Source of the DNA: Proteobacteria bacterium TMED61
Lineage (GTDB): Bacteria; Pseudomonadota; Gammaproteobacteria; Arenicellales; UBA868
Reading direction: 5' to 3'
Length of the DNA: 35,580 nucleotides
Assembly: GCA_002171735.1 (NCBI GenBank)
Contig: NHDO01000005.1
Coordinates: 1 to 35,580 of the forward strand
Under the pieces are notes generated by a model that worked only from the letters and a program-made list of their open reading frames with translations, ran no database searches and was not told the origin of the DNA. Positions 8,660 through 27,679 of the stretch are shown piece by piece (within the stretch, counting starts at the first letter, position 1; each line of letters opens with the position of its first letter). Made by a program: the position numbers and the translations under genes.

Positions 8660-8688
8660 ATAAGTAAGGATAAAAGCCAACAAATTAT

Positions 8689-8728
8689 AATCTCCCCCGA
8701 CATATTATGTTGGGGGGGATTTTTTTTT
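8689..8728 (+). terminator. Strong rho-independent terminator after tmoX
   Basis: A near-perfect stem pairs AATCTCCCCCGACA (8689-8702) with TGTTGGGGGGGATT (8708-8721), with two G-U pairs and a loop of about five bases, followed by a run of T to 8728. The G/C-rich stem stands out in this AT-rich sequence. It separates tmoX from the MORN gene and would reduce or block read-through towards tmoV and tmoW. Confidence 0.88.
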
Positions 8729-8753
8729 AAATAAATTAGTGTAAAATGTAATA

Positions 8754-9128
8754 ATGAAAAAATATATCATTTATATAGTTTTAAGTTTTTTAATTACAAC
8801 CTCTGTATCAGCTAGAAAAACAGGTTGTGAAGGAAATTGTGAAAATGGTTTTGGTAAATGGACTTATACAGACAAAACAACTTATGAAGGGAATTGGGTT
8901 GATACCAAGAAACATGGTGAAGGAATTGAAACTTGGCCTAACGGATATATTTATGAAGGTGAATTTAAAAATAGTCAGTGGAGCGGCCAAGGAATTTTAA
9001 CTTTTCCTGATGGATCAACTTATAAAGGAGAATGGAAAAATGGGTTCATGAATGGCAAAGGAACATTTACTTGGTCTGATGGAAAAGAGATAAAAGGCAA
9101 CTGGATAAATGGAAAATTAAAAAAATAA
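8754..9128 (+). CDS. Exported MORN-repeat protein
   Basis: 124 residues with a signal peptide (Lys-Lys start, hydrophobic core about 4-17, SVSA-R cleavage region) and then MORN-type repeats: YEGNWVDTKKHGEGIETWPNG, YEGEFKNSQWSGQGILTFPDG, YKGEWKNGFMNGKGTFTWSDG and a shorter last unit, preceded by a degenerate unit containing two Cys (CEGNC). The repeats fill nearly the whole mature protein, so this is a small periplasmic or surface beta-sheet protein with no catalytic domain. It begins 25 bases after the tmoX terminator and is followed 6 bases later by the next gene, so these two form a pair. Function unknown; MORN proteins bind lipids or proteins in other systems. Confidence 0.85.
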   Translation: MKKYIIYIVLSFLITTSVSARKTGCEGNCENGFGKWTYTDKTTYEGNWVDTKKHGEGIETWPNGYIYEGEFKNSQWSGQGILTFPDGSTYKGEWKNGFMNGKGTFTWSDGKEIKGNWINGKLKK

Positions 9129-9134
9129 TTTAAA

Positions 9135-9686
9135 ATGTTACAAGAAATCTATTTAAATAAATTAAAAGAACTACCAGAACATACCAAAAAGTTCGTAGGA
9201 CTTGTAGCTATAGTAATTATAGTAATATTATCTTTTGCTATTTTAAATGCTTTTTTTGGTCAAGGCGACGAGTTGGTTGAAAAAATGAAAAAAGAAGAAG
9301 AAAGAATTGCACAAGAACAAAAATTAAGTGAACTGATTTCAACTCTTCCATCAGGTATTTTAGTACCTTTCCAAAGTAAAGGTAATCATAAATTGTCCAA
9401 AGAACAATATAAGGCAGTTTGCAATGCAACAAAAATTGTAAGTCAGCGTGCAGTTATGGGTGCCAATTTAATAAACTTTAAAGCACATAAAATATATACC
9501 ATCAATGGTAATAAAATTGATGAAACATTTGTTAAATGGGACAAAGAAAACAATAAATGTTTTGCAGGTTTTGTTTTAAGTGGAAGTAATGTTGGTATAA
9601 ACGAAACAATTACTGTAAGCGGAGAAGCTTTAAGTTTTTTTAACACAGGAATTGACACAAGAGTTTATTTTATTAAAAATTTTTAG
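9135..9686 (+). CDS. Hypothetical single-pass membrane protein
   Basis: 183 residues, not recognised. A short cytoplasmic N-terminus is followed by one membrane segment (about 21-41, VGLVAIVIIVILSFAILNAFF), a charged helical stretch likely to form a coiled coil (about 44-68, rich in Glu and Lys) and a globular C-terminal domain of about 110 residues, presumably periplasmic, with two Cys (in AVCNATK and NKCFAGF). Starts 6 bases after the MORN gene and ends 62 bases before tmoV. Location between tmoX and tmoV suggests co-expression with the transporter, but nothing in the sequence shows a transport role. Confidence 0.75.
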   Translation: MLQEIYLNKLKELPEHTKKFVGLVAIVIIVILSFAILNAFFGQGDELVEKMKKEEERIAQEQKLSELISTLPSGILVPFQSKGNHKLSKEQYKAVCNATKIVSQRAVMGANLINFKAHKIYTINGNKIDETFVKWDKENNKCFAGFVLSGSNVGINETITVSGEALSFFNTGIDTRVYFIKNF

Positions 9687-9748
9687 GAGGTAAAAACAGC
9701 AAATAGTGTATATATTTATTTCTACTTTGTGAAACTTATTAAAAAATT

Positions 9749-10780
9749 ATGACTGATGCGGTAATTAAATGTGAGTCTGTATATAAAATTTTTGGAGCAA
9801 ACGCTAAAAAAATGCTCCAAGAAGCAAACGGGAATGTAGATGCAAAAACATTTCAGAAAAAAGGATGTATTGTAGGTGTAAACAATGCTTCGTTTGAAGT
9901 TTCAAAAGGAGAAATGTTGGTTGTAATGGGTTTGTCTGGCTCAGGTAAATCCACATTATTAAGATGCATTTCTAGATTAACAGATGCAACTGATGGAAAA
10001 ATTTATATAGAAGGTCAAGATTTACTTTCATTAAAAAACAAAGAACTAATTGAACTTAGAAGAAATAAGATGGGAATGGTCTTTCAAAGTTTTGCTTTAC
10101 TTCCACATAAAACAGTTTTGGAAAATATTGCCTTTCCACTTCAAATTAAAGGAATTGAAGTTGAAGATAGTATAAACAAAGCTGTAGACATGACTAAACT
10201 TGTTGGTCTTGAAGGAAGAGAAAACTATTTTCCAAGAGAGCTTTCTGGTGGACAACAACAAAGAGTAGGTATCGCTCGATCATTAGCTGTAGAACCAGAT
10301 ATTTGGTTTTTAGATGAACCTTTTTCTGCTTTAGACCCATTAATTAGAAAAGAAATGCAAGATGAATTTTTAAGACTTCAAGAAAAATTAAAAAAAACAA
10401 TTATGTTTATTACTCATGATTTTGATGAAGCGTTAAAACTTGCAGATCGTATTGCAATTATGAAAGATGGAATAATTGAGCAATTAGATACTCCAGCTAA
10501 AATTGTACTAAATCCAGCAACAGAATATGTAAAAAAATTTACTGAAGAAGTTCCTAGGGAAAAAGTTTTAAAAATAGAAGATGTAATGGAAAAATCAAAT
10601 AATGAAAATACAAGCAATTTAAAAGTTTTAAAGGATGAGATAATTGAAAATGTTGCAGAAAAAATTTTAACTCAAGAAAAATCAGTAACTGTAATCGATA
10701 AAAATAATAAAGTTGTTGGAACAGTTTATCCTTCAAAAATAATTCATACTGTTTTTGGAGGAAGAAAAAATAATAGTTAA
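9749..10780 (+). CDS. tmoV: TMAO ABC transporter, ATP-binding protein (ProV/OpuAA family)
   Basis: 343 residues. Walker A GLSGSGKST (61-69), Q-loop VFQSFALLPHKTVLENIAFP, signature LSGGQQQRVGIARSL, Walker B WFLDEPFSALDP and switch His in FITHDFDEA are all intact. After the ATPase core, the last 70 residues include one CBS-like motif (VTVIDKNNKVVGTVYPSKI), less than the CBS pair of osmoregulated OpuAA proteins. It powers the tmoW permease; the gap to tmoW is 3 bases. The long N-terminal section before Walker A (with a KKMLQEANGNVDAKTFQKK insert) is typical of quaternary-amine transporters of the ProV type. No Shine-Dalgarno sequence precedes the ATG. Confidence 0.87.
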   Translation: MTDAVIKCESVYKIFGANAKKMLQEANGNVDAKTFQKKGCIVGVNNASFEVSKGEMLVVMGLSGSGKSTLLRCISRLTDATDGKIYIEGQDLLSLKNKELIELRRNKMGMVFQSFALLPHKTVLENIAFPLQIKGIEVEDSINKAVDMTKLVGLEGRENYFPRELSGGQQQRVGIARSLAVEPDIWFLDEPFSALDPLIRKEMQDEFLRLQEKLKKTIMFITHDFDEALKLADRIAIMKDGIIEQLDTPAKIVLNPATEYVKKFTEEVPREKVLKIEDVMEKSNNENTSNLKVLKDEIIENVAEKILTQEKSVTVIDKNNKVVGTVYPSKIIHTVFGGRKNNS

Positions 10781-10783
10781 ATT

Positions 10784-12937
10784 ATGGAATTATTAAAAAA
10801 ATATCCAAAATTATTTCAATGGTTATTTTTGCTAATTATATTTTTTGGTTTATGCTTTGCAATTGATGTTCCTGAAACCTACAAATTTATAAGAGGCCAA
10901 GCTGAGTTCATTAAAGATCCAAATCAAAGTGCTTACACACTTTTTGGTGCTGAAGTAAGGTATTATGCTTTTGATGTTTTTTGGCGACTACCTCCTTTAC
11001 TTGGATGGTTACCTATTTGGGTAAACGATTCTTTATTTTTCTTGTTGAATGAGTGGATGCCAATGGAATTTTGGGACTCAAGTGTTCAAGAATATAGAAC
11101 TCGTCCTTTAGTTCTTCAAATAACAAGAAACTTGACTGCGTTTATGACATTTCTCATTGAATTAATTAGAGAAATTTTATTAGGTGGAGTTGAGACAGTA
11201 GTTGCATTTACAAGTTGGGATTTTGTGAGCGCATATTCTTGGGCAAAATTACCAGGCTTGCCTTGGACAATCGTTGCAGCAGGTGCAGCGATATTAGGTT
11301 ATAAACTAAGTGGTAAGGGCCTAGCTATATTTGCTGGTTTAGTCATGATTTATATTTCTATATTTGGTCAATGGAAACCTTCAATGCAAACACTCTCTTT
11401 TATATTAGTAGCAGCACCACTTTCTTTTATTTTTGGTTTGACTTTAGGCATCATGGCTTACAAGAGTAAACGTGTTGAGAAAGCCTTATATCCAATACTT
11501 TTAGTTATGCAAACAATGCCTCAATACGCAGTACTTGTCCCTGCAATGGTTTTGTTTGGTATTGGTGATCATGCTGCAGTTATTATAACGATGGTTGTTG
11601 CTATTCCTCCAATGATCTTATTAACTTTATTAGGTCTTAGAGCAGTACCACCCGAAGTTATTGAAGCTGGTAAAATGAGCGGATGTAGCAATTGGCAACT
11701 TATGACTAACGTATTAATTCCAACCGCAAGAAGAGATATATTAATTGGAGTGAACCAGGTGATAATGGTTTGTTTTGCTATGGCGGTTATTGCGGCCTTT
11801 ATAGGTGCAAAAGGATTAGGATGGAATTTATTAGTAGCCTTAAATCAACTAAATATTGGATTAGCATTAGAAGCTGGCTTATGTATTAGTTTGATTGCCA
11901 TACTGTTAGATAAAATGTCTTTAGCTTGGGCAAATAAAAAAGAAGATTATTTTGGTAACCTGACATTTTTTCATCGTTATAAAAATTCGTTATTTTTTGC
12001 TGGTGCGGTATTAGTTGGAATGATACTTGCTTATGTCGGGTCTTTTTTCTTTAAAGAAGGTTTTAATTACTTATATGAAGTTCCACATAACAAAGGAATA
12101 TCAACTGCAGATTTCTGGAATAAAGGTGTTGATTGGATTTGGGATACATTTTTTCAAACTTTAAAAATTTTTAATACATGGTTAATTACAGAAGTTCTTC
12201 AACCAATGAGAGCTTTATATCTAAGAATGCCAGCAGTTGCTACCTTGGTATTAGTCATTGGAGCTGGTTATATAATCGGTGGAATTCGTTCTGCTTTAAT
12301 AGTAGGTGGATTAACATTATTCATAGCACTAAGCCCATGGTGGGATAGAGCATTAGTTACAACTTACATGGCAACTTTTGGAGTTATTATATCTTGTATA
12401 ATTGGACTAACTGTTGGAACCATATGTCAACAAAATAAACATTCCACAAATTTTATGTTGGCAGTTTGTGATATTTTTCAAACTTTTCCATCTTTTGTAT
12501 ACTTGATTCCAGTAATGATGCTTTTTGGAGTAACTGACACGTCTGTATTAATTGCTGTAATTGTTTATGCAACTATACCTGCTACAAGATATACCATTGA
12601 AGGATTAAGAAGTGTTCCATCGGCATTACATGACGCCGCCACAATGTCAGGAGTAACGAAAATACAAAGATTATTAAAAATAGAATTTCCAATAGCATTT
12701 CCTCACATGATGCTTGGTTTAAATCAAACAATAGTTTTTGCGTTATTTATGGTAATAATTGGAGCATTTATTGGGACAGAAGATTTAGGGCAATATATTT
12801 TAAAAGCTTTATCTGATAAAGCTGGTGGAGGAAAAGGATTGATACTTGGTATTTGTGTAGCTTTCATAGGTTTAATATTTGATAATTTAATAAGAACTTG
12901 GGTAGAAAAAAGAAAAAAACATCTGGGTTTAAACTAG
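10784..12937 (+). CDS. tmoW: TMAO ABC transporter, duplicated permease (ProW family)
   Basis: 717 residues, about twice the length of a single ProW subunit. Two permease cores are visible, each with an ABC-coupling (EAA) loop: EAGKMSGCSNWQLMTNVLIP in the first half (about residue 295) and HDAATMSGVTKIQRLLKIEFP in the second (about residue 620). Each core is surrounded by several hydrophobic segments, and a long hydrophilic stretch with aromatic residues (about 410-470) links them. One polypeptide could thus form the complete transmembrane channel used with a TmoV dimer. The stop codon is 2 bases before the next gene's ATG, so the transporter and the following alcohol dehydrogenase are probably on one mRNA. 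Confidence 0.87.
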   Translation: MELLKKYPKLFQWLFLLIIFFGLCFAIDVPETYKFIRGQAEFIKDPNQSAYTLFGAEVRYYAFDVFWRLPPLLGWLPIWVNDSLFFLLNEWMPMEFWDSSVQEYRTRPLVLQITRNLTAFMTFLIELIREILLGGVETVVAFTSWDFVSAYSWAKLPGLPWTIVAAGAAILGYKLSGKGLAIFAGLVMIYISIFGQWKPSMQTLSFILVAAPLSFIFGLTLGIMAYKSKRVEKALYPILLVMQTMPQYAVLVPAMVLFGIGDHAAVIITMVVAIPPMILLTLLGLRAVPPEVIEAGKMSGCSNWQLMTNVLIPTARRDILIGVNQVIMVCFAMAVIAAFIGAKGLGWNLLVALNQLNIGLALEAGLCISLIAILLDKMSLAWANKKEDYFGNLTFFHRYKNSLFFAGAVLVGMILAYVGSFFFKEGFNYLYEVPHNKGISTADFWNKGVDWIWDTFFQTLKIFNTWLITEVLQPMRALYLRMPAVATLVLVIGAGYIIGGIRSALIVGGLTLFIALSPWWDRALVTTYMATFGVIISCIIGLTVGTICQQNKHSTNFMLAVCDIFQTFPSFVYLIPVMMLFGVTDTSVLIAVIVYATIPATRYTIEGLRSVPSALHDAATMSGVTKIQRLLKIEFPIAFPHMMLGLNQTIVFALFMVIIGAFIGTEDLGQYILKALSDKAGGGKGLILGICVAFIGLIFDNLIRTWVEKRKKHLGLN

Positions 12938-12939
12938 AA

Positions 12940-14109
12940 ATGTCTATATCTAATTGGAATTACCCAACCACAGTTTGGTTTGGAGAGGGAAGGGTAAAGG
13001 ATCTTCATATCGCTTGTAGAAACCTAGGAATTAAAAAACCACTTTTTGTAACTGATAAAGATTTAGCAAAAACCCATTTAGTAAAAAAAATAATTAGCGA
13101 TAGTAGTTTAAAAAATTTTTCAATAAACATTTTTTCAAATATAAAAGGAAATCCAGTAGGTTCTAACGTTGATGAAGGTGTGAAAGTTTTTAAAAAAGGA
13201 AATCACGATGGAGTTATTGCCTTTGGTGGTGGAAGTGGTCTAGACGTTGGAAAGGCTATTGCTTTTATGTCATGTCAGAATAGACCAATTTGGGATTTTG
13301 AAGATGTTGGTGATAATTGGACTAGAGCAAATAGTGATAAAATTGCTCCTATTATTGCTATACCTACTACAGCAGGAACAGGTTCAGAAACTGGTAGAGC
13401 TTCTTTAATTACAAATGAAGAGACACAAACAAAAAAAATTATTTTTCATCCAAAGTTTATGCCTTCAATTGTTATTTTAGACCCAAATTTAACAATTGAT
13501 TTACCATCAAATTTAACTGCTGCTACGGGGATGGATGCTTTAGCTCATAATCTTGAAGCTTACTGTGCTTCAGGGTTTCACCCTATGGCTGATGGAATAG
13601 CTTTAGAAGGAATGAGGTTGATAAAAGAATGGTTGCTAACAGCAGTAAATGACGGAACAAATTTAAAAGCAAGATCTGCTATGTTAGTTGCTGCAACGAT
13701 GGGATCTACAGCTTTTCAAAAAGGTTTAGGAGCCATTCATTCTTTAAGCCATCCTGTTAATTCAGTTTACAATGTTCATCATGGCTTATCTAATGCAATT
13801 TTTATGCCTTATGTAATCACATTTAATAAAAATGAAATAGAAAAAAAAATAGTTAAGTTAAGCGAATATTTAGAATTAAAGGAAAAAAATTTTAATGGTT
13901 TCTTAAATTGGATATTAAAATTAAGAAAAAAACTTAAAATACCTCATAAACTATCAGATGTAATTAATGTAAAAGAAGATGACATCGACAAATTATCTGC
14001 AATGGCTTTAGAAGATCCTTCAACAAGTGGTAACCCTAAAAAACTTACATCTAGCGATTTAAAATTAATGTATCAATATAGTCTAAAAGGAAAGTTGTTT
14101 CACCAATAA
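12940..14109 (+). CDS. Iron-containing (type III) alcohol dehydrogenase
   Basis: 389 residues from the ATG at 12940; a longer frame from TTG at 12898 overlaps tmoW and adds only a Lys-rich tail, so it is rejected. NAD-binding block FGGGSGLDVGKAIA and PTTAGTGSETGRAS are clear. The four metal ligands are present with family spacing: Asp199 and His203 (GMDALAHNLEAY) and His267 and His281 (GAIHSLSH...HHGLSNAI). The reaction is NAD(P)-dependent interconversion of an alcohol and an aldehyde in the cytoplasm. Substrate unknown; candidates from context are succinate semialdehyde or a related short hydroxy acid, or choline as for the GbsB relatives. It follows tmoW by 2 bases. Confidence 0.85.
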   Translation: MSISNWNYPTTVWFGEGRVKDLHIACRNLGIKKPLFVTDKDLAKTHLVKKIISDSSLKNFSINIFSNIKGNPVGSNVDEGVKVFKKGNHDGVIAFGGGSGLDVGKAIAFMSCQNRPIWDFEDVGDNWTRANSDKIAPIIAIPTTAGTGSETGRASLITNEETQTKKIIFHPKFMPSIVILDPNLTIDLPSNLTAATGMDALAHNLEAYCASGFHPMADGIALEGMRLIKEWLLTAVNDGTNLKARSAMLVAATMGSTAFQKGLGAIHSLSHPVNSVYNVHHGLSNAIFMPYVITFNKNEIEKKIVKLSEYLELKEKNFNGFLNWILKLRKKLKIPHKLSDVINVKEDDIDKLSAMALEDPSTSGNPKKLTSSDLKLMYQYSLKGKLFHQ

Positions 14110-14113
14110 GTTT

Positions 14114-14911
14114 ATGTCAAAGGAAATAAAACTATTAATTATTGAAGGAAACACCAAAGAAGAAAATGATAATTTTAAAGAAGCAGGTTGTGTATCTCAA
14201 TCAGAAAATTTTAAACAACACATTAAAAAAATTGATACTAATTGTATAATAGATATTGTTTCACCAGGAAATGATGAATCTATCAAAAAAATAATTCCAT
14301 TTTTAAAAGATTATAATGGAATAATTTTAACTGGCAGCACCTTAAGAGTTAATGATGATAGTTTAGAAGTTAGAAAACATATACAGTTTGCAAAAAAATG
14401 TTTTGAAGTAGAAAGTTTTATTTTTGCAGCTTGTTGGGGGCTGCAAATAACTGTTACAGCTGCTGGAGGCAAATGCAGAGTCTCTCCCAATGGATCACAT
14501 ATTGGTATAGCCCAAGATATTATATTAACTAATGATGGAAAAAAACATAATTTATATTTTGAAAAAGAAAATAAATTTTCTTCTCCTGCCTTTAATCATG
14601 ATGAAGTTGTTATACCTCCAAATAATTCTACGATATTAGCAAGTGATAAAATAAATAAATTTATGGCTTTACAGTTTCATGTAAATAAAGCTGAAATATG
14701 GGGAATCCAGTATCATCCAGAAATACCCTATGACTATATGCTTAAACTTATTAAGCATAGATCTAAAGGATTATTAAATAGAAAAATTTTTAAAGATAGT
14801 GATGAGTTAGGTCAGCATATTAAAGTAATAGAACAAGCTAAAGTTGAGTTAAAAGATCAAATACGTACTTTAGAACTAAAAAATTGGATAAATTACATAA
14901 AAAATAAGTAA
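14114..14911 (+). CDS. Class I glutamine amidotransferase-like protein
   Basis: 265 residues with the triad of class I amidotransferases: Cys107 in FAACWGLQ, His201 and Glu203 in GIQYHPEIP. There is no fused synthetase domain. Such stand-alone proteins either supply ammonia to a partner or hydrolyse gamma-glutamyl amides. It starts 4 bases after the alcohol dehydrogenase. In a neighbourhood handling gamma-glutamylmethylamide, a gamma-glutamyl hydrolase or transferase role is an attractive guess but not shown. The C-terminal tail (about 215-265) is helical and charged. Confidence 0.75.
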   Translation: MSKEIKLLIIEGNTKEENDNFKEAGCVSQSENFKQHIKKIDTNCIIDIVSPGNDESIKKIIPFLKDYNGIILTGSTLRVNDDSLEVRKHIQFAKKCFEVESFIFAACWGLQITVTAAGGKCRVSPNGSHIGIAQDIILTNDGKKHNLYFEKENKFSSPAFNHDEVVIPPNNSTILASDKINKFMALQFHVNKAEIWGIQYHPEIPYDYMLKLIKHRSKGLLNRKIFKDSDELGQHIKVIEQAKVELKDQIRTLELKNWINYIKNK

Positions 14912-15048
14912 ATTATTTTAAAAAAAATTTTTTAAAACAAAAAGATAGCTTGCAACAATTATAGTTTTTGATACATTTTTAAAACAGCGATACATAACTC
15001 ATCATAATGATATGAAAGTGGGATCGGTCGTTAGCAATGGAGCTGATG
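14912..15048 (+). promoter_or_regulatory. Intergenic leader before the monooxygenase operon; candidate promoters
   Basis: This spacer opens with an A/T-only dyad (14916-14937) that could act as a weak terminator. Two promoter-like pairs follow: TTGCAA (14950-14955), 16 bases, TACATT (14972-14977); and TTGATA (14968-14973), 17 bases, TACATA (14991-14996). A short dyad ATCAT-A-ATGAT (15001-15011) may be an operator. GGAG at 15039-15042 is 6 bases before the ATG at 15049 and decides that start. Sequence patterns only. Confidence 0.35.
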
Positions 15049-16215
15049 ATGAAAATAGGATATTTTTGTAACACTACAAATTGGAATAATAAACCTTACG
15101 AAAAAATTTTAGAAGAGACTAGAGAAATAACAATATTTTGTGATCAAAATAATTGGGATTCTATTTGGTATACTGAACATCATTTTAATCACGAAGGAAT
15201 GGAAGCTTGTACTAATCCTTTAATGATGGGAACTGATGCTGCTGCAAGAACAAATAGAATAAAAATTGGGCAAGCTTGCAATGTAATAACTTTCCATAAC
15301 CCAATCAGACTAGCCGAAGACATAGCAATGCTAGATCAGTTATCCAAAGGTAGAGTTCTAGTAGGAATCGGAAGGGGAATTTATGGACGTGAAGCTATAA
15401 ACATGAACAAAGAAGCTGATTTAAAAGATCAAGCAAAAAACTTTAGATTATTTGAAGAAACATTAACAATTATGAAAAAAGCGTGGACTGAAAATTTCTT
15501 TAGTCATAAAGGTGAATTCTACACTTATCCAGCTCCAAACTTTGTTTGGCAGCATGACATGAGTCCTCCAAGTGAAGAGTTTTTAGATACAGCAACTAAT
15601 GAAATAAAAAAGATTAGTATAGTGCCAAAAACATATCAAAAACCACATCCTCCAATTTGGCAAGTTGTTGATGGTGCTAGATCGATTGAATGGGCAGCAC
15701 AAAATGGAATTAATACCATCATGTGGATACCAACAGTTAAAGCCTTAAAAAAGAGATTTCAAATATATAAAGATGCTAAGTCTAAAAGTGAAAAAAGAGA
15801 TGTACCCTTAGGAGAGGGAATTTCTTTAGTTAGAGATATGTTTGTTGCAGAAACAATGGAAGAAGCTGAAAAATTGGCTGGAGAACATATTATAAACTAT
15901 ATGAAATGGGTATGTCATTGGAGAGGTCTTGGTAACCACATGGACCCAGGTGAGGAACTACCTGAAACCAAACACAAGTTAGATCTTTTAGATTATGAAT
16001 TTTTACATAAAAGAAATTTATTATTTGGAACTCCAGAATATGTAATTGATAAGATAAAAGAATTACAATCAGAATTAAATTTACAAAATTTACAAGTTTG
16101 GTCTAATTTTCCTGGAATCAAACATGAGGATTGTATGAGAAGCATTAAATTATTTAATGATGAAGTGATTCCTAAAATTACTTCAATTAATTCAAAAGTT
16201 CAAAAAGCAAGTTAA
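15049..16215 (+). CDS. Luciferase-like (LLM class) flavin-dependent monooxygenase
   Basis: 388 residues from ATG 15049, chosen because GGAG is correctly spaced and MKIGYFCNTT is a typical LLM start; an ATG 12 bases earlier would overlap that binding site. Features of the bacterial luciferase family are the early YTEHHFNHEG block, NPIRLAEDIAMLDQLSKGRVLVGIGRG (flavin-binding region) and the C-terminal FGTPEYVIDKIKEL. Such enzymes use reduced FMN from a separate reductase and O2 for Baeyer-Villiger or ring-opening oxidations. No flavin reductase gene lies in the window. It heads a run of five genes ending in an aldehyde dehydrogenase. By analogy with TgnB of trigonelline degradation it may open an N-methylated heterocycle. 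Confidence 0.85.
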   Translation: MKIGYFCNTTNWNNKPYEKILEETREITIFCDQNNWDSIWYTEHHFNHEGMEACTNPLMMGTDAAARTNRIKIGQACNVITFHNPIRLAEDIAMLDQLSKGRVLVGIGRGIYGREAINMNKEADLKDQAKNFRLFEETLTIMKKAWTENFFSHKGEFYTYPAPNFVWQHDMSPPSEEFLDTATNEIKKISIVPKTYQKPHPPIWQVVDGARSIEWAAQNGINTIMWIPTVKALKKRFQIYKDAKSKSEKRDVPLGEGISLVRDMFVAETMEEAEKLAGEHIINYMKWVCHWRGLGNHMDPGEELPETKHKLDLLDYEFLHKRNLLFGTPEYVIDKIKELQSELNLQNLQVWSNFPGIKHEDCMRSIKLFNDEVIPKITSINSKVQKAS

Positions 16216-16235
16216 TATAAGTTACTGCTTAATAA

Positions 16236-16258
16236 GAGGAGTTTAAATTAAAAAGATG
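16236..16258 (+). promoter_or_regulatory. Ribosome-binding site suggesting an ATT or distant ATG start for the methyltransferase
   Basis: GAGGAG (16236-16241) is a strong Shine-Dalgarno sequence, but the first ATG (16256) is 14 bases away, beyond usual range. An in-frame ATT at 16247 is 5 bases away and would add three residues. Either the ATG is used with poor spacing or an ATT start is used. Confidence 0.4.
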
Positions 16259-16882
16259 TCCCAAAAAGATGTAGGAAACAAACTTCCAATCTATAAGTTA
16301 AAAGCTGGAAAACAAGTAGAAGAATATTATGATGAATGGACTATAAAAAATAAATATGATGAAGACATGTCTAACTGGAAATATTCAGGACCAAAAGAAA
16401 CAGTTGATCTATTTTCAAAGTATACCAATAAAAAAGATCTAAAAATTTTAGATGCAGGATGTGGCACAGGACTTGTAGGAATTGAATTAAATAAAAAAGG
16501 ATTTAATAATATTGATGGAGCAGATTTTTCTCAAGCAATGTTAGATCTTATTCCTAAAAATATTTATAAAGATTTATTTAAGATAGATTTAAATAAAAAA
16601 CTAAATATTAGTGATAAAACTTATGATGGAATTACCTGTGTAGGAACGTTTACTTTTGGACATGTCAATCCACCATGTTTAGATGAGATGGTGCGAATAT
16701 GTAAAAAAGGATCTCAAATTTGTTTTACAATTAATATAGGAATATATGAAGAATATGGGTTTGACAAAAAGATTAAAGAATTAGAAGATAACAAATCATG
16801 GAAGGTGCTTGAATTTTATAAATCTGATTATATTGCAAGTAAAAATGTAAATGCTTGGTTGGTATTAGCTAAAACAATTTAG
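16256..16882 (+). CDS. Class I SAM-dependent methyltransferase
   Basis: 208 residues. Motif I is ILDAGCGTGLVGIEL (about 63-77), followed by an acidic residue at the end of the second strand (DGADFSQAML) and a later strand YDGITCVGTFTFGHV, as in small-molecule methyltransferases of the Methyltransf_11 type. An N-terminal helix with YYDEWTIKNKYDEDM resembles the lid of such enzymes. It sits between the monooxygenase and the DUF1185 protein, in a catabolic set where a methyltransferase is unexpected; it could methylate an intermediate or carry out a non-methyl SAM-fold reaction. Substrate unknown. Start codon choice is discussed in the adjacent ribosome-binding-site entry. Confidence 0.8.
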   Translation: MSQKDVGNKLPIYKLKAGKQVEEYYDEWTIKNKYDEDMSNWKYSGPKETVDLFSKYTNKKDLKILDAGCGTGLVGIELNKKGFNNIDGADFSQAMLDLIPKNIYKDLFKIDLNKKLNISDKTYDGITCVGTFTFGHVNPPCLDEMVRICKKGSQICFTINIGIYEEYGFDKKIKELEDNKSWKVLEFYKSDYIASKNVNAWLVLAKTI

Positions 16883-16895
16883 GATTATTTTAATA

Positions 16896-17486
16896 ATGGA
16901 CATAAATTTAAGAAAACTTACAAAATTTGTTGATAAAACTTTTATAGAAGGAGGAAAGATAGCAAAAAAACCTGTTTTAATGGTATCTGTTGCTGCTGTT
17001 TTCAAGAATCCTTGGCATGGAAAAGGTTTTGTTGAAGATTTAAAACCAGTAATTTTAGATTTGGCACCAAAACTTGGTGATATTCTTGTTCCAGAATTAA
17101 TTAAAGAAATCGGTTCAGCAGAAAAAATTTTAGCATACGGGAAAGCAGGTGTTGTAGGAATAGAGGGTGAAATAGAGCATGCATCAGCTTTTATTCATAC
17201 CTTAAGATTTGGTAACAAATTTAGAGACGCAGTTGGAGGAACTTCTTATTTAAGTTTTACAAATACAAGAGGACCTGCTGGATGTAAAATTTCTATTCCA
17301 ATGATGCATAAAACTGACTCTGGTTTAAGGCCATATTATTTGACACATGAATTTACAATTCATGATGCACCAATTGGTAATGAAATTGTTATAGCTATCG
17401 GTGGTGCTTCCAGCGGAAGAGCTCATGCAAGAACTGGTGACCGTTATCAAGATATGAAAGAAATGGGAATAAAAAATCCAAAATAA
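16896..17486 (+). CDS. 'Amino acid synthesis' family protein (DUF1185)
   Basis: 196 residues. The blocks KIAKKPVLMVSVAAVFKNPW, AYGKAGVVGIEGEIEHASAF, SFTNTRGPAGCKISIPMMHK and IAIGGASSGRAHARTGDRYQD mark the PF06684-type family, named 'amino acid synthesis' although I know of no firm reaction for it. The protein is soluble, with no signal or membrane segment. Members often occur beside LLM monooxygenases, alpha/beta hydrolases and aldehyde dehydrogenases, as here. That suggests a role in hydrolysis or isomerisation of a ring-opened intermediate, but this is inference. Separated by 13 bases from the methyltransferase and 26 from the hydrolase. Confidence 0.8.
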   Translation: MDINLRKLTKFVDKTFIEGGKIAKKPVLMVSVAAVFKNPWHGKGFVEDLKPVILDLAPKLGDILVPELIKEIGSAEKILAYGKAGVVGIEGEIEHASAFIHTLRFGNKFRDAVGGTSYLSFTNTRGPAGCKISIPMMHKTDSGLRPYYLTHEFTIHDAPIGNEIVIAIGGASSGRAHARTGDRYQDMKEMGIKNPK

Positions 17487-17512
17487 CTTTATTTCTTAAA
17501 AAATATTAATAT

Positions 17513-18307
17513 ATGTCAAAAACTTCAGACTTATTTGAAACTTATTACATGTTTAATAAGGTTAATGAAACAGACCCAATTATATTTATTCATGGCGTTG
17601 GTTTAGATCATAGAATATGGGATGACCAAATTAAATATTTTAAAAATTATAATACAATTGTTTATGATTTAATTGGTCATGGAAAAACTTCTTTAAAAAA
17701 AGATAAAATAACTATGAAAGATTTTTCAAACCAATTATTAAAATTAGCTAATGATTTAAAGATTGATAAATTTCATTTAATAGGTTTTTCACTAGGATCA
17801 CTTATTGCCAGAGATTTTGCATCCTTGCATAATAATAGATTATCCTCATTAACAATTTTTGGAACTGTATATAAAAGAACTGAAGAACAAAAACGAGCGA
17901 TTATTAGCAGATATGAGATGATGAAACTTAAAAAAGATATTACTAAAAAAAGAGCTTTATCCAGATGGTTTACAGAAACTTTTATTCAAAAAAATCCAGA
18001 AATTTATAAAAAAATATATTCTATGCTAGAAAATACTAATTTTAAAACTTGGCTAAAAGTATATAAACTTTTTGTTTATCATGAAGATAATGATGATAAC
18101 ATCAAACAAATTAAAGCCAATACCCTTGTAGTAACTGGTAAAGACGATATAGGATCAAAACCTATAATGAGTGAAAAACTAAGTGAATTGATTAAAGGAA
18201 GCAAGTATAAAACAATAGATAAAGGTAAACATCTTTGTAATATAGAGTGTGCAGAAGCTTTTAATAAAATGATTAAAAAATTTATTGATAGTAATAAAAA
18301 TGTCTAA
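17513..18307 (+). CDS. Alpha/beta hydrolase
   Basis: 264 residues with a complete alpha/beta hydrolase frame: oxyanion-hole region IFIHGVGLDHRIWDDQI, nucleophile elbow GFSLGS (Ser93), an acidic residue in VTGKDDIGS (Asp211 or Asp212) and His240 in DKGKHLCNIE. No signal peptide, so cytoplasmic. Size and motifs match the family of 3-oxoadipate enol-lactonase and of TgnD, which hydrolyses the ring-opened trigonelline intermediate. It overlaps the next gene by 8 bases, implying coupled translation with the aldehyde dehydrogenase. Substrate not determinable from sequence. Confidence 0.82.
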   Translation: MSKTSDLFETYYMFNKVNETDPIIFIHGVGLDHRIWDDQIKYFKNYNTIVYDLIGHGKTSLKKDKITMKDFSNQLLKLANDLKIDKFHLIGFSLGSLIARDFASLHNNRLSSLTIFGTVYKRTEEQKRAIISRYEMMKLKKDITKKRALSRWFTETFIQKNPEIYKKIYSMLENTNFKTWLKVYKLFVYHEDNDDNIKQIKANTLVVTGKDDIGSKPIMSEKLSELIKGSKYKTIDKGKHLCNIECAEAFNKMIKKFIDSNKNV

Positions 18308-19781
18308 AATTAAAGAATATAAAATGTTCATTGATGGAGAATGGGTTAACTCAGAAAGTAACAAAACATTTGAAACTTTAAATCCTGAAAATAATAAACC
18401 TTGGGCAAAAGTCCCTGAAGCAAGCATCAAAGATGTTGATAGAGCTGTGAAAGCAGCACAAAAAGCTTTTGAGGGTACTTGGCCAAAATTATTGCCAAGA
18501 GAAAGAGGAAAATATTTAAAAGCTATAGCAACTCAATTAAGAGAAAATGCTGAAGCATTAGGAAAAATAGAAACTATTGATACAGGAAAACTTTTTAGAG
18601 AAACTAAAACTCAAGCAAATTATATTGCAGAATATTATGATTATTTTGCGGGGCTTGCTGACAAAGTTGAAGGCACAGTAGTTCCTATAGATAAACCAGA
18701 AATGCAAGTTATAACTACTCGCATTCCAATAGGTGTTGTTGCTGCTATTATTCCTTGGAACTCACAAATGCTGTTAACAGCTGTTAAACTAGCACCAGCC
18801 TTAGCTATGGGTAATACTGTTGTAATTAAAGCATCTGAACTTGCTCCAGTAACTTTATTAGAATTTGGAAAACTGATTGAAAAATCTGGAATACCTAAAG
18901 GAGTAGTTAACATCATTACTGGCTTAGGAGAACCTTGTGGCAAAGCATTAACATCACATAATTTAGTTGAAAGAATTGCTTTCACTGGAGGCCCTGAAAC
19001 TGCAAAACATATTATTAAAAACTCAGCTGAAAATTTATCTCAAGTAAGTTTAGAATTAGGAGGAAAAAGCCCCGTTGTAGTTTTTAATGATGCAGAACAA
19101 GAAAATGCATTAAATGGAATAACTGCAGGAATATTTGGAGCTAGTGGACAAAGCTGTATAGCAGGATCAAGGCTTTATATTCAATCAAAAATTTATGAAG
19201 AGTTTTTAGATAAATTAATATCTAAAGCTGAAAAAATAATATTAGGCGCTCCTATGGAATTAAAAACTCAAATGGGTCCATTAAACAGTTTTAAACAATT
19301 AGAAAATATTGAAAAAAATATTAAAGCTACTTTAGAACAAGGTGGAAAACTTCGATGTGGAGGTAAAAGGTCAAAATTATCCAATGAAGGTTATTATTTT
19401 CCAGCAACAATAATTGAATGCAAAAATCACAACTTACCTTCAGCTGAAAATGAATTATTCGGTCCAATTTTATCAGTTATGAAATTTGAAACCGAAGAAG
19501 AAGCAATTACAAAAATGAATGATAATAAATATGGACTATCATCAGGTGTTTATACTGCAAATTTTGGAAAAGCTATGAGAGTTTCTAAAGCGATAAGAGC
19601 AGGAATTGTTTTTGTAAATACTTATAGATTAATTTCTCCTATGGCTCCATTTGGAGGAATTAAAGATAGTGGGTTTGGTAAGGAAGCAGGAATAGAATCA
19701 ATTAAAGAGTACACAAGAATAAAAACTATATGGTTAAATTCATCAGATAAACCGATGACTGATCCATTCACAATGGGTTAA
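18300..19781 (+). CDS. NAD(P)-dependent aldehyde dehydrogenase
   Basis: 493 residues from ATG 18300; an upstream TTG at 18285 would add five residues but is less likely. Motifs: PWNSQMLLTAVKLAPALAMGNTVVIKASE (cofactor site), FTGGPETAKHI, catalytic base Glu252 in SLELGGKSP, and nucleophile Cys286 in GASGQSCIAGSR. It is close to the betaine-aldehyde / hydroxymuconic semialdehyde dehydrogenase group in length and motifs. In the proposed pathway it would oxidise the aldehyde or lactol released after ring opening (compare TgnC). An alternative with the iron alcohol dehydrogenase is choline-to-betaine oxidation. The next gene starts 2 bases after its stop. Confidence 0.87.
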   Translation: MSKIKEYKMFIDGEWVNSESNKTFETLNPENNKPWAKVPEASIKDVDRAVKAAQKAFEGTWPKLLPRERGKYLKAIATQLRENAEALGKIETIDTGKLFRETKTQANYIAEYYDYFAGLADKVEGTVVPIDKPEMQVITTRIPIGVVAAIIPWNSQMLLTAVKLAPALAMGNTVVIKASELAPVTLLEFGKLIEKSGIPKGVVNIITGLGEPCGKALTSHNLVERIAFTGGPETAKHIIKNSAENLSQVSLELGGKSPVVVFNDAEQENALNGITAGIFGASGQSCIAGSRLYIQSKIYEEFLDKLISKAEKIILGAPMELKTQMGPLNSFKQLENIEKNIKATLEQGGKLRCGGKRSKLSNEGYYFPATIIECKNHNLPSAENELFGPILSVMKFETEEEAITKMNDNKYGLSSGVYTANFGKAMRVSKAIRAGIVFVNTYRLISPMAPFGGIKDSGFGKEAGIESIKEYTRIKTIWLNSSDKPMTDPFTMG

Positions 19782-19783
19782 AT

Positions 19784-20641
19784 TTGTCTACCAAACATAT
19801 ATTTCTTGCATTATTAATAATGGCACTTTTTGGAAGTGCATTTGTTGCAGGTAAAGTAGTTTTAAATACAAGTGTACCACCTATTTTATTTGGTTCATTA
19901 AGGCTATTAATAGTTTTAATTTGTTTAATTCCTTTTTGGAGATTTAAGATTCCTTCAAAAAAATATATTTTTCCTCTTATAATTTTTTCTCTATCAATGG
20001 GCGTAGGTGTAACAATGTGTACGTATTTAGCTTTAAATGCATCATCAATTGTTTCACCTGTAATAATTGGATCTCAATTAACAGTTCCTTTTGCTATAAT
20101 TCTTAGTTCTTTATTTATTAATGAAAAAATTAGTTATAAAAAATGGTTTTTTGTTTTAAGTGCTTTTGCGGGAATTGTATTGATAGGATTTGATCCAAAA
20201 CTTGTTGATAATACTCTTGCTTTATTTTTAACTACTTTAATGGCACTTTTTTATTCAATAGCAAATGTATCTTCACGTAAAATTAAGAATATAAACATTG
20301 TAATTACTAATGGATTTATGGCTCTTACTGGTTTGGTAGTTCTTATAATTTTATCTTATATATTTGAAGGTGATCCTTTAGAAAATATTAAAAATATTGA
20401 ATTTGAGGTTTGGTTTTTGATTCTTCATTCTGGATTAATTGTTTCAGTTTGTGCACACATGTCTTTATTTTACCTTTATAAATACTATTCAGTAGGACAG
20501 GTTTTACCATTTTATGCATTATTCCCTGTATTCGGGTTAATACAGACTTTTTTAATATTTGGTGAGATTCCCAGTCTACTTGTTACTCTAGGTGGAATTA
20601 TAGTAATTAGCTCAGTTTATATGGTTCAAAAGGTAAAATAA
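19784..20641 (+). CDS. EamA/DMT-family permease, TTG start
   Basis: 285 residues, almost entirely hydrophobic, with about ten membrane segments in two similar halves, as in drug/metabolite transporters (EamA). The first helix contains ALFGSAFVAGKVVL and the second half ends with the FGEIPSLLVTLGGIIVISSVYM block typical of the family. The only start that keeps the first helix whole is TTG at 19784, 2 bases after the aldehyde dehydrogenase stop; the first ATG (19820) would cut into that helix. Cotranscription with the catabolic set suggests import of its substrate or export of a product. It converges on fhs with a 10-base gap. Confidence 0.82.
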   Translation: MSTKHIFLALLIMALFGSAFVAGKVVLNTSVPPILFGSLRLLIVLICLIPFWRFKIPSKKYIFPLIIFSLSMGVGVTMCTYLALNASSIVSPVIIGSQLTVPFAIILSSLFINEKISYKKWFFVLSAFAGIVLIGFDPKLVDNTLALFLTTLMALFYSIANVSSRKIKNINIVITNGFMALTGLVVLIILSYIFEGDPLENIKNIEFEVWFLILHSGLIVSVCAHMSLFYLYKYYSVGQVLPFYALFPVFGLIQTFLIFGEIPSLLVTLGGIIVISSVYMVQKVK

Positions 20642-20651
20642 TTCTATTGGA

Positions 20652-22337
20652 TTAGAAGAGTCCCTCAACTTCTCCATTTTTGTTTAACTTAATTACATCA
20701 GCAGCTGGCTTTTTTGGAAGACCAGGCATAGTCATTATTGCTCCACAAATAATAACAATAAATTCTGCACCACTAGATAGCCTTACTTCTCTAATTGACA
20801 AAACATGTCCTGAAGGAGCTCCTTTTAAATTTGGATCTGTTGAAAAACTATATTGAGTTTTTGCAACACAAACAGGAAATTCTCCAAACCCATTTTCTTC
20901 CATTTGTTTTAATTGATCTCTTACTTTTGTATCAGCTACTACTTCACTTGCACCGTATATTTCTTTTGCAATTTTTTCAATTTTCTTCCATAAAGATTCT
21001 TTATCTTGATATAAAAATTTGAATTTATTTTGATTACCTTTTTCACAAATTTTAACCACATTGTTTGCAAGATCTTTTGTTCCTTCACCACCATTAGACC
21101 AATGTTTACAAAGACTGACACCAATATTAAGTTTTTTACAATAGTCTTGAATAATTTTTATTTCATTATCTGTGTCAGTAATAAAATGATTTATAGCAAC
21201 AACAACTTCTAAATTAAATTTTTTTATATTCTGAATATGCCTTTCTAAATTTGGCAATCCTTTTTTTAATGCTTCCAAGTTCTCTTTTTTTAAATCTTCT
21301 TTTTTTATTCCTCCATGCATTTTTAGCGCTCTTATTGTTGCTACTAAAACAACACAACTAGGTTTGATATTTCCTTTTCTACATTTGATATCTAAAAATT
21401 TTTCTGCACCAAGATCAGCACCAAAACCAGCTTCTGTCACAACATAGTCAGATAATTTTAAAGCAGTTTTGGTTGCAATAATAGAATTACAACCATGTGC
21501 AATATTTGCAAAAGGACCTCCATGGATTATAGCAGGGTTGTTTTCAAGTGTTTGTGTAAAATTTGGACGCAATGCATCTTTTAATAAAACAGTCATAGCT
21601 CCATGGGCATTTATATCTTTAGCATAAACAGGCTTTTTCTCTCTTGTATAAGCTATAGTAATGTTTCCAATTTTTTCTTCTAATTCTTTTAAAGTATTTG
21701 ATAAACAAAAAATTGCCATTATTTCTGAGGCAACTGTAATATCAAAGCCATCTTCTCTAGGAAAGCCATTAGCTATACCACCAAGATTAATATTTATTGA
21801 ACGAAGCGCACGATCATTTAAATCAACCACTCTTCTCCAAACAACTCTTCTAGTATCGATATTTAGTTTATTACCCCAATAGATGTGATTATCTATCAAA
21901 GCGGAAAGAAGATTGTGAGCAGATGTTATTGCGTGAAAATCTCCAGTGAAATGTAAATTAATTTGTTCCATAGGTACCACTTGCGCATAACCACCTCCAG
22001 CAGCCCCTCCTTTCATTCCAAAAGATGGACCAAGACTTGGCTCTCTTAAGCAAACAATTGATTTTTTTCCTATTTTATTTAAACCATCACTTAAACCAAC
22101 CGAAGTTGTTGTTTTACCCTCTCCTGCAGGTGTGGGGGTTATAGCTGTAACCAAAATTAAGTTACTCTTTTTTTCTTTTAATTTTTGAATATACTCTAGG
22201 TTTACTTTAGCAATATGTCGTCCCATAGGGCTAAAAGCACCAGGCTCATCAGGAACACCAACCTTAGCAAGAATGTCTTTAATAGGCTGCATTTTTGCTG
22301 CTCTAGCTATTTCAATATCTGATTTTATATCGCTCAT
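20652..22337 (-). CDS. fhs: Formate-tetrahydrofolate ligase
   Basis: 561 residues, full length for the family. The ATP-binding P-loop region [21 protein letters not shown] (about 67-87) and [25 protein letters not shown] are diagnostic. The reaction is formate + ATP + tetrahydrofolate to 10-formyl-tetrahydrofolate, reversible; in a methyl-oxidising marine cell it can run backwards to release formate and gain ATP from methyl groups. It is divergent from the SoxBDAG-type demethylase operon, whose formaldehyde is delivered to tetrahydrofolate, so the pair makes sense together. The folD step in between is not in the window. Confidence 0.95.
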
Positions 22338-22426: not shown

Positions 22427-23683
22427 ATGCAAAAATATTCGATATTCAGTTTAATTAAAAATGCATTCACCAACCATCAAAACTGGGATGTTGTTTGGAG
22501 AGATCCAACACCTAAAAAAGAATACGATGCAATTATTATTGGTGGCGGGGGTCACGGTCTTGCAACTGCATATTATTTAGCTAAAGAGCATAAAATTACA
22601 AATGTAGCTATTTTAGAAAAAGGTTGGATTGGAGGGGGCAATGTAGCCAGAAACACCACAATATTAAGATCAAATTATATGTGGGATGCAAATAGTGTTT
22701 TTTATGAACATGGAATGAAACTTTGGGAAAATCTATCTCAAGAATTAAATTATAATGTTATGTATTCACCTAGAGGAATTATAAACCTTGCACATTCAGA
22801 CGCTCAATTAAACGCATATTCAAGAAGAGGAAATTCAATGAGATTAAATGGTATAGATGCTTTGATGTTAGGAAGGGAAGATTTAAAAAAAATGATTCCT
22901 TTTGCTGACTTTTCATCATCAGCAAGATTTCCAATCTTTGGTGCTTTGATGCAGCCACGTGGTGGAACAGCCAGACATGATGCCGTAGCTTGGGGTTACG
23001 CAAGACAAGCAGATTCAATGGGTGTTGATATTATTCAGCATTGTGAAGTTACAGGTTTTGATATTCAAAATGGAAAAATACAAGGTGTTCAAACTTCTAG
23101 AGGAAATATTAAAACAAAAAAAGTAGGATTATGTGTAGCTGGTAGCACTTCTATATTAGCAGAAAAATTAAACATGACACTTCCAATCGAAGCACATGTA
23201 CTACAAGCTTGCGTTTCAGAACCAGTAAAACCTTTTTTAGATCATGTAGTAACATTTGGTGCAGGGCATTTTTATTGTAGTCAGTCTGATAAAGGTGAAA
23301 TGGTAATGGGTGGAGATCTAGACGGTTATAACAGCTATGCTCAAAGAGGAAATCTTCCAACTATACAACATGTTTTATCTGAAGGAGTTGCTATGTTTCC
23401 AAATTTAAGCAGATTAAAAATGTTACGAACCTGGGGTGGAATAATGGACATGTCTATGGATGGATCTCCTGTTATTGATAAAAGCCATATTGATGGACTT
23501 TATTTAAATTTTGGGTGGTGCTATGGTGGTTTTAAAGCAACGCCAGTTTCAGGATTTACTTTTGCGCATACTATAGCTCAAGACAAACCTCATAAATTAA
23601 ATGAAAAATTTAAATTAAATAGATTTAGTACTGGAAACCTTATTGATGAGAAAGGTTTAGGAACAAAAACATGGATAGGATAA
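22427..23683 (+). CDS. soxB: Heterotetrameric sarcosine oxidase / N-methylglutamate dehydrogenase, beta-type subunit
   Basis: 418 residues. FAD-binding IIIGGGGHGLATAYYLA (about 36-52) and the block WIGGGNVARNTTILRSNY match SoxB. His184 in TARHDAVAWGYAR is positioned like the His that holds FMN covalently in heterotetrameric sarcosine oxidase. The subunit oxidises the N-methyl group. With the next three genes it is in the order SoxB-D-A-G, shared by sarcosine oxidase and by N-methylglutamate dehydrogenase (MgdABCD). Because gmaS and mgsABC are present nearby, N-methylglutamate is a strong candidate substrate. Symbol is given for the subunit type, not the substrate. Confidence 0.85.
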   Translation: MQKYSIFSLIKNAFTNHQNWDVVWRDPTPKKEYDAIIIGGGGHGLATAYYLAKEHKITNVAILEKGWIGGGNVARNTTILRSNYMWDANSVFYEHGMKLWENLSQELNYNVMYSPRGIINLAHSDAQLNAYSRRGNSMRLNGIDALMLGREDLKKMIPFADFSSSARFPIFGALMQPRGGTARHDAVAWGYARQADSMGVDIIQHCEVTGFDIQNGKIQGVQTSRGNIKTKKVGLCVAGSTSILAEKLNMTLPIEAHVLQACVSEPVKPFLDHVVTFGAGHFYCSQSDKGEMVMGGDLDGYNSYAQRGNLPTIQHVLSEGVAMFPNLSRLKMLRTWGGIMDMSMDGSPVIDKSHIDGLYLNFGWCYGGFKATPVSGFTFAHTIAQDKPHKLNEKFKLNRFSTGNLIDEKGLGTKTWIG

Positions 23684-23686
23684 ATA

Positions 23687-23953
23687 ATGTTGGAAATTAA
23701 TTGCCCATATTGTGGAAAAAGATCTCAAAATGAATTTTCATATGGTGGAGATGCAAGTGTGAAAAGACCCGAACTAGGTAAAGAAGTGTCAGATAAAGAA
23801 TGGGATGAATTTATTTATTTTAGAAAAAACATAAAAGGAAAACATTCAGAATTTTGGCATCATATTGCTGGCTGTCGACAATGGTTTAAAGTACTTAGAA
23901 GTACTTCAACACATGAAATTTTTAAAACAGCTAAAATAGAAGAAGAATTATAA
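23687..23953 (+). CDS. soxD: Sarcosine oxidase / N-methylglutamate dehydrogenase, delta-type (zinc) subunit
   Basis: 88 residues, beginning MLEINCPYCGKRSQNEF, with CPYC and a later HHIAGCRQWF: three Cys and a His that bind Zn in SoxD. The central DKEWDEFIYFRKN and the end RSTSTHEI are also family features. This small subunit stabilises the complex between the beta and alpha subunits. It is 3 bases after soxB and 4 bases before soxA. Confidence 0.88.
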   Translation: MLEINCPYCGKRSQNEFSYGGDASVKRPELGKEVSDKEWDEFIYFRKNIKGKHSEFWHHIAGCRQWFKVLRSTSTHEIFKTAKIEEEL

Positions 23954-23957
23954 GCTT

Positions 23958-27602: not shown

Positions 27603-27679
27603 GGCGGGATAGCTCAGGTGGTTAGAGCGCAGCACTCATAACGCTGAGGTCGGCAGTTCGAGTCTGCCTCCCGCTACCA
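27603..27679 (+). tRNA. tRNA-Met (CAT anticodon), elongator type; tRNA-Ile2 is the alternative
   Basis: A full cloverleaf of 77 bases with encoded CCA. Acceptor GGCGGGA pairs with TCCCGCT (first pair G-U), D-arm AGCTCAGGTGGTTAGAGC, anticodon loop CTCATAA and T-arm GGCAGTTCGAGTCTGCC. It lacks the three G-C pairs of the initiator anticodon stem, so it is elongator Met or the lysidine-modified Ile2. The innermost anticodon-stem pair (A31, C39) is a mismatch, which is unusual. It ends 5 bases before the next ATG. Confidence 0.93.

Follow-up and report, generated by a model that had tools for sequence, protein, structure and literature searches.

What compound is broken down by the gene run at 12940-20641 of contig NHDO01000005.1, and does this run form a single pathway? 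The window considered here is the entire contig of 35580 bases. A preliminary description had proposed that eight genes within it open an N-methylated heterocycle of the homarine or trigonelline type by Tgn-like chemistry. The open reading frames (ORFs) and families of all eight genes agree with that description; however, the genes look like two units, 12940-14911 and 15037-20641, and not one conserved cluster. From sequence comparisons, the stretch from 15049 to 20641 is, on a modest balance of probability, the SAR11 version of a tgn-type module for oxidative ring opening whose first enzyme, a luciferase-like monooxygenase (LLM), comes from another LLM branch. Its genes are as follows.

15049-16215, + strand: LLM flavin monooxygenase (PF00296, 146.7 bits; ORF from 15037)
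16256-16882, + strand: class I S-adenosylmethionine methyltransferase (family match)
16896-17486, + strand: AA_synth/DUF1185 protein, TgnF-like (PF06684, 212.5 bits, cutoff 27)
17513-18307, + strand: alpha/beta hydrolase, PcaD-like, with a proposed TgnD role (family match)
18300-19781, + strand: aldehyde dehydrogenase (ALDH), TgnC-like (family match)
19784-20641, + strand: EamA permease with a TTG start (family match)

The LLM probably starts at 15049 since its relatives begin at the corresponding ATG, and the ALDH probably starts at 18300. The window was binned in a metagenome-assembled genome (MAG) of 2.6 Mb that belongs to another group and has a contamination of 6.65%. The G+C content of the window is 30.6% as compared to 42-57% across nine further stretches (six contigs) from the same bin. 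The window LLM is 84-88% identical to its relatives on all 80 contigs that were kept, every one assigned to Pelagibacteraceae, Pelagibacterales or Pelagibacter. Within the bin's own order, an LLM match (E<=1e-40) was made in three other genomes of 109 searched, at 32-33% identity. Given the G+C contrast, the kinship of the LLM to Pelagibacterales and the few matches in the bin's order, the window is most likely SAR11 DNA that was mis-binned into an unrelated MAG.

The cassette was then considered across SAR11. In a census of 247 genomes sampled from the order of the Pelagibacter genome G110 (LLM threshold E<=1e-60), the LLM was present in 82, DUF1185 in 81 and both in 79, a co-occurrence with a Fisher value of 3e-58 that is not corrected for kinship. 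An LLM without DUF1185 was seen in G151, G153 and G163, the latter two on contigs that end within about 1 kb downstream, and DUF1185 without an LLM in G139 (628 bases from the contig start) and G351. Among 100 SAR11 loci, the order LLM, DUF1185, hydrolase and ALDH was kept in 92 when interposed genes were allowed; the remaining eight are partial and at least one of them (L138) is cut by a contig end. A methyltransferase occupies the slot that it has in the window only in L128 (79% identity), although the spacing between LLM and DUF1185 suggests that one is also present in G207, G241 and G314. Since the order of the four genes is so widely kept while the methyltransferase is nearly unique to the window and L128, the core comprises LLM, DUF1185, hydrolase and ALDH, and the methyltransferase is accessory. 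Of the 100 loci, 33 have an EamA relative after the cassette, and a LivK-like binding protein follows in 56.

Three of the four core proteins are akin to those of tgn-type plasmid cassettes, so named here by gene content and genus and not by comparison to A. baylyi proteins. Ten plasmid cassettes were reached through the cassette genes, and all contain an LLM, DUF1185, hydrolase, ALDH and flavin reductase, the reductase of L104 being seen by tblastn only. While 387 plasmid records match DUF1185, all four that were inspected belong to cassettes that also encode an LLM, an ALDH, a hydrolase and a flavin reductase. The window DUF1185 is 55-59% identical to four cassette DUF1185s, and in a tree the SAR11 group joins the protein from the alphaproteobacterial genome G565 with support of 90/92, its placement among the cassette types being weak (66/45). 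The ALDH matches 2473 plasmid records, of which the two best-ranked (55.6% and 54.6%) are both inside LLM/DUF1185 cassettes. The ALDH tree places the SAR11 protein with the tgn-type (TgnC-like) and third-type ALDHs (99/98), apart from those linked to glutamine synthetase (GS). For the hydrolase, three plasmid matches lie in inspected cassettes (L097, L103 and L145) and, as judged by their coordinates, at least three more adjoin a gene for an LLM or DUF1185. Residues H27, S93, D212 and H240 are near-invariant in 19 hydrolase sequences. The protein is of the same fold family as the TgnD type, with 19-23% identity to its counterparts in S. meliloti and Shinella and 30-31% to the second type; the hydrolase tree does not settle the nearest cassette type.

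The plasmid cassettes vary in their surroundings. A tgn-type cassette on S. meliloti pSymA is near nod genes with a succinate semialdehyde dehydrogenase (SSADH) gene behind it, and another was found in Acinetobacter venetianus. A second kind of cassette (L103, L145, L097 and L100) adds a carboxymuconolactone-decarboxylase-like protein to the LLM, flavin reductase, ALDH, hydrolase and DUF1185, and the A. fabrum C58 example adjoins a ProX/W/V betaine transporter. A third kind (L142 and L104) contains RidA, an enoyl-CoA hydratase or carnitinyl-CoA dehydratase, a 3-hydroxyacyl-CoA dehydrogenase and BKACE. A Ruegeria plasmid operon (L140 and L141) encodes an MttB-family methyltransferase, a class III aminotransferase, two FAD oxidoreductases and a thiamine diphosphate (ThDP) enzyme. 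The last of these is 41% identical to a ThDP enzyme that follows the LLM in 13 SAR11 loci (for example, L128:10084-11784 and L136:10100-11797) and that the window copy lacks. The best models of the SAR11 ThDP enzyme are Xsc-like (sulfoacetaldehyde acetyltransferase) with scores of 402-422 bits, below the cutoffs of 620 and 676.

The LLM differs from its partners in kinship. In a tree of 30 rows, from which 10 rows cut from match coordinates were left out, the SAR11 LLM lies outside a clade formed by the TgnB-like, second-type and third-type cassette LLMs with support of 100/100. The TgnB-like rows are plasmid cassettes named by gene content and do not include A. baylyi TgnB. At E<=1e-30, six plasmid matches to the window LLM were obtained, with identities of 28-36%. 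Thus, the proposed likeness to Tgn is supported for DUF1185, the hydrolase and the ALDH, which are of the trigonelline-cassette kind, and is not supported for the LLM, which falls outside the TgnB-like clade; of the phylogenetic outcomes named beforehand as contrary, the separation of the monooxygenase was observed. An AlphaFold2 model of the LLM, calculated from five close sequences, had a mean pLDDT of 38.3. As a result, this model was discarded.

Outside of SAR11, the same LLM branch was sought in 385 sampled alphaproteobacterial genomes and found in eight (E<=1e-70), one being the SAR11 centre. In G565, one stretch (L147) holds a flavin reductase (119.6 bits), an LLM (55%), DUF1185 (63%), a hydrolase (31%) and an ALDH that is 62% identical to that of the S. 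meliloti cassette. G580 holds an LLM (45-46%) and DUF1185 (58%) together with a hydrolase and an ALDH. Because both genomes carry the LLM and the partners, this non-TgnB LLM type appears to team with tgn-type partners beyond SAR11 too, though not always. The other five genomes gave seven stretches without any partner, one of them a 10 kb stretch with the LLM at the contig start.

From these comparisons, a sequence of reactions may be proposed. What has been observed is the gene content and order, the co-occurrence, the kinship of three core proteins to tgn-type cassettes and the lack of such kinship in the LLM; the individual reactions, the substrate and the tie to neighbouring genes are all inferred. 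The LLM, supplied with reduced flavin mononucleotide (FMNH2) by an unlinked reductase, would insert O2 and open an N-methylated pyridinium betaine beside the nitrogen. The TgnC-like ALDH would then oxidise the aldehyde that results from ring opening, the hydrolase would take off the N-formyl group, and the TgnF-like DUF1185 protein may help a late step. The window cassette is flanked by amine genes on one side and by the formate-tetrahydrofolate ligase gene (fhs) on the other; formate could pass to the neighbouring Fhs, while GmaS, Mgs and SoxBDAG could take over the methylamine or N-methylamino acid. Homarine leads among the candidate substrates, if tentatively, followed by trigonelline at a clearly lower probability; failing these, the substrate would be another N-heterocycle. 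PMC8269262 argues on steric grounds that homarine is an improbable substrate of TgnA/B. A homarine version of the module could therefore pair the same partners with another oxygenase, which is an argument rather than a test. As judged from the proteins, the cassette looks as if it works like the tgn module but by its oxygenase is not a Tgn member.

Several results weigh against this reading. The window LLM is just 25-28% identical to the cassette LLMs and is nearer (36%) to a Peribacillus enzyme that has different neighbours. DUF1185 is absent from three plasmid stretches that were reached through the window LLM (L094, L095 and L096), and the full set was found in only two of the seven non-SAR11 alphaproteobacterial genomes with this LLM type from which a stretch was taken. 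No flavin reductase gene was found among the scanned window proteins. The flavin reductase family PF01613 is present in 44 of the 247 SAR11-order genomes and in eight of the 82 with the LLM, each time on another contig. As an alternative FMN reductase, PF03358 is non-discriminating because it was matched in 208 of the 247 genomes at low scores, the best shown being about 40-54 bits. The ThDP enzyme in the operon of 13 of the 100 SAR11 loci is needed by no tgn step. The cassette is near fhs or sox in none of the 100 other SAR11 loci and near methylamine genes in a single one. In addition, a coumarin cluster likewise contains a member of the DUF1185 family, which is hence not specific for N-heterocycles (PMC7913881).

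The strongest competing explanation, and one that is compatible with the SAR11 ring-opening module, is that the cassette is the SAR11 branch of the homarine (Hom) pathway and is already known. This is a real but minority prospect. The preliminary description had pointed to a marine homarine operon (hom genes) that is said to be present in SAR11. A homarine pathway published by Ferrer-Gonzalez et al. 2026 is cited in PMC13390433, and Mgd-type genes flank the window cassette. The occurrence of the SAR11-type LLM in just eight of 385 alphaproteobacterial genomes fits poorly with a widely conserved pathway, and no cassette gene is annotated as the imine reductase that makes N-methylglutamate, an absence that also tells against the preferred reading. 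SAR11 and a luciferase-like monooxygenase were not mentioned jointly in the literature searched. If the cassette is the published homarine operon, as it may be, the present work confirms that operon and corrects its gene boundary; otherwise, a new ring-opening enzyme branch is at hand.

A substrate without an N-heterocycle is rather unlikely but deserves weight. The LLM would then carry out a Baeyer-Villiger or aldehyde oxygenation, the hydrolase would act as a lactonase, and the ALDH would oxidise a semialdehyde. Consistent with this, the LLM has luciferases and 3,6-diketocamphane monooxygenase as its neighbours in the PDB, the hydrolase is closest to 3-oxoadipate enol-lactonase, and the LLM relatives of Peribacillus and Sulfitobacter adjoin lactonase or metallo-beta-lactamase (MBL) genes. 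The Xsc-like ThDP enzyme of some operons and the coumarin-cluster DUF1185 (PMC7913881) point the same way. Against this stands the nearness of three of the four core proteins to those of the trigonelline-type cassettes with a flavin reductase and LLM.

The trigonelline pathway proper, with the LLM performing the TgnB reaction to yield methylamine, formate, CO2 and succinate semialdehyde, is improbable. While a TgnC-like ALDH, a TgnF-like DUF1185 protein and a hydrolase are all present, the LLM is outside the TgnB-like clade and neither TgnA nor TgnE is linked. Marine particles are also reported to contain much less trigonelline than homarine (PMC8269262), with the caveat that the homarine values were later corrected downward (PMC10134881).

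A broader and speculative form of the ring-opening module may also be entertained. SAR11 and a few other alphaproteobacteria would combine the distinct LLM branch with tgn-type partners, and sometimes with the Xsc-like ThDP enzyme, and would cleave the ring of a marine N-methylated heterocycle by neither the Tgn nor the Hom route. One lineage would have moved the cassette into the methylamine/formate locus, beside the sinks for its products. As a whole, this proposal is doubtful.

The surroundings of the cassette in the window comprise the following.

12940-14109, + strand: iron-containing alcohol dehydrogenase (Fe-ADH; family match; mechanical ORF from TTG 12898)
14114-14911, + strand: class-I glutamine amidotransferase fold protein (family match; C-W-G-L-Q and Q-Y-H-P-E motifs)
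7697-12937, + strand: betaine/trimethylamine N-oxide-type ATP-binding cassette (ABC) transporter with tmoX, MORN, a 183-amino-acid protein, tmoV and tmoW (substrate-binding protein, ATPase and fused permease)
20652-22337, - strand: formate-tetrahydrofolate ligase, fhs (NF010030, 917 bits, cutoff 652)
22427-27538, + strand: SoxB, SoxA and SoxG (N-methylglutamate dehydrogenase or sarcosine oxidase type)

The Fe-ADH probably starts at 12940. It and the amidotransferase make up the first unit, which is separated from the LLM by a gap of 125 bases. The SAR11 LLM loci were the best 80 of 280 relatives, 52 of them with at least 8 kb of flank on each side; in the flanks of these 80, as far as they extend, there was no match to Fe-ADH, fhs or sox, and the amidotransferase gave two weak matches (30-32%). 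In 20 further SAR11 LLM stretches, none of Fe-ADH, amidotransferase, fhs and sox was found. Conversely, among five stretches taken around amidotransferase relatives, L163 and L164 have Fe-ADH, amidotransferase, fhs and sox without an LLM, L165 and L166 have the amidotransferase near fhs without Fe-ADH, and in L162 the amidotransferase adjoins tmoW. The amidotransferase is present in 143 of the 247 SAR11-order genomes and in 62 of the 82 with an LLM, and its tie to the LLM is loose. In PMC3160333, fhs, a putative glutamine amidotransferase and an Fe-ADH of HTCC1062 are listed as SAR11_1285, SAR11_1286 and SAR11_1287, respectively, and the Fe-ADH is proposed to have a role in methanol and short-chain alcohol use. 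The window Fe-ADH and amidotransferase would correspond to SAR11_1287 and SAR11_1286, matched by position and family rather than by sequence.

The two best-ranked plasmid relatives of the Fe-ADH, both inspected, adjoin GS-like and ALDH genes. Of four plasmid relatives of the amidotransferase, a GS-like gene adjoins two and an ALDH gene two, while L109 has neither; the neighbourhoods include GS with ALDH and GS with P450. Against solved chains, the top score of the amidotransferase was to gamma-glutamyl peptidase 1 (9.7e-07), and the protein is probably a gamma-glutamyl-amide hydrolase. Together, the two genes look like a resident pair of the SAR11 fhs locus that serves gamma-glutamyl-amine or alcohol metabolism, so that their earlier description as extra members that do not fit the Tgn set was beside the point. 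A single route for gamma-glutamylated amines through all eight genes, with Fe-ADH, ALDH and amidotransferase as enzymes, would draw on these GS-like and ALDH neighbours and on the GS-like gene in the window, yet it was rejected as very improbable since the window ALDH groups with TgnC-like and not GS-linked ALDHs, each unit occurs without the other and the 125-base gap divides them.

As had been noted from the gene order, a quaternary-amine-type transporter with ProX/ProV/ProW-type genes precedes these units, and it is presumably TmoXWV. The name TmoXWV is taken from PMC13390433. Between tmoX and tmoV are a MORN-repeat protein and the 183-amino-acid protein without a Pfam match (8754-9686), and relatives of this pair are at the same place in L162 and L163; the transporter gene order of the window is repeated in L162. 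Upstream, the strand opposite to the transporter carries Tdm, mgs-like genes and the genes of an FAD enzyme and a GS-like enzyme. The GS-like, mgs-like, fhs and soxB/A/G genes that had been described as flanking the cluster are thus present, together with Tdm, and the placement amid methylamine, N-methylglutamate and formate genes holds for the window copy. With respect to N-methylglutamate dehydrogenase versus sarcosine oxidase, PMC3160333 describes the division of functions between the two sox operons as unclear. An Rfam scan of the window made a sole match, a tRNA at 27603-27676. Promoter-like sites were not in excess (41 as compared to 42.9 in shuffles), and a single weak match (14979-15008) is within the gap preceding the LLM. 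Five terminator-like sites were counted as compared to 2.3 (standard deviation 1.8) in shuffles, none of them in the amidotransferase-LLM gap.

Other SAR11 loci present further neighbours. Of the 80 loci, only L029 has genes resembling mgsA and FwdC (88-92% to those of the window) in the vicinity of the LLM cassette, which makes it the second site that combines the cassette with N-methylglutamate genes. In L014 (7953-9869), the genes directly upstream of the cassette resemble the ectoine hydrolase DoeA and EutA, and relatives are near the cassette in L120, L121, L125, L126 and L130. A second LLM-family protein of 344 amino acids is encoded in a SAR11 genome at L158:18585-19619, near a BKACE-type gene (53%) and a 314-amino-acid protein that is dehydrogenase-like by eye.

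SAR11 are described as the most abundant ocean heterotrophs (PMC3160333), and homarine and related compounds as making a genuine contribution to labile nitrogen (PMC8269262). With this in mind, the four linked core genes, which a third of the SAR11-order genomes sampled carry, are a small, testable target for understanding who consumes such compounds, and the same target bears on the fate of formate and methylamine. The cassette resembles the trigonelline-breaking pathway. Since its ring-opening enzyme differs, a related marine compound such as homarine is probably what is eaten.

The Tgn system, reportedly set out by Perchat et al. 2018, is said to comprise the reductase TgnA, the oxygenase TgnB, the dehydrogenase TgnC, the hydrolase TgnD and the SSADH TgnE. 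Look-alikes from A. venetianus, S. meliloti pSymA, Shinella and Leisingera share with the window an LLM, DUF1185, hydrolase and ALDH in one gene run, and the window is 49-51% identical to them in the ALDH and 52-57% in DUF1185. Both the TgnC-type ALDH and the TgnF-type DUF1185 are therefore matched in the window cassette. Unlike Tgn, the window LLM is of another branch with no linked flavin reductase, and no TgnE-like second ALDH was found among the scanned window ORFs of at least 100 amino acids. DUF1185 had been counted among the members that do not fit the Tgn set, which was mistaken as it is of the TgnF family: according to PMC7913881, TgnF stimulates TgnE and has a homologue in the DUF1185 protein HcdD, for which no such effect was seen. 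The third-type cassettes of Parasedimentitalea marina (L104) and Aminobacter sp. SR38 (L142) have the nearest plasmid ALDH (55-56%) with DUF1185 and hydrolase of the same kind, but differ in an LLM from the TgnB-like clade and in the RidA, BKACE and acyl-CoA genes. Compared to the one-carbon/methanol genes SAR11_1285-1287, which are numbered consecutively (PMC3160333), the window has the LLM cassette inserted between the amidotransferase and fhs. The Hom pathway, as cited in PMC13390433, would share with the cassette its expected substrate class and a link to N-methylglutamate dehydrogenase.

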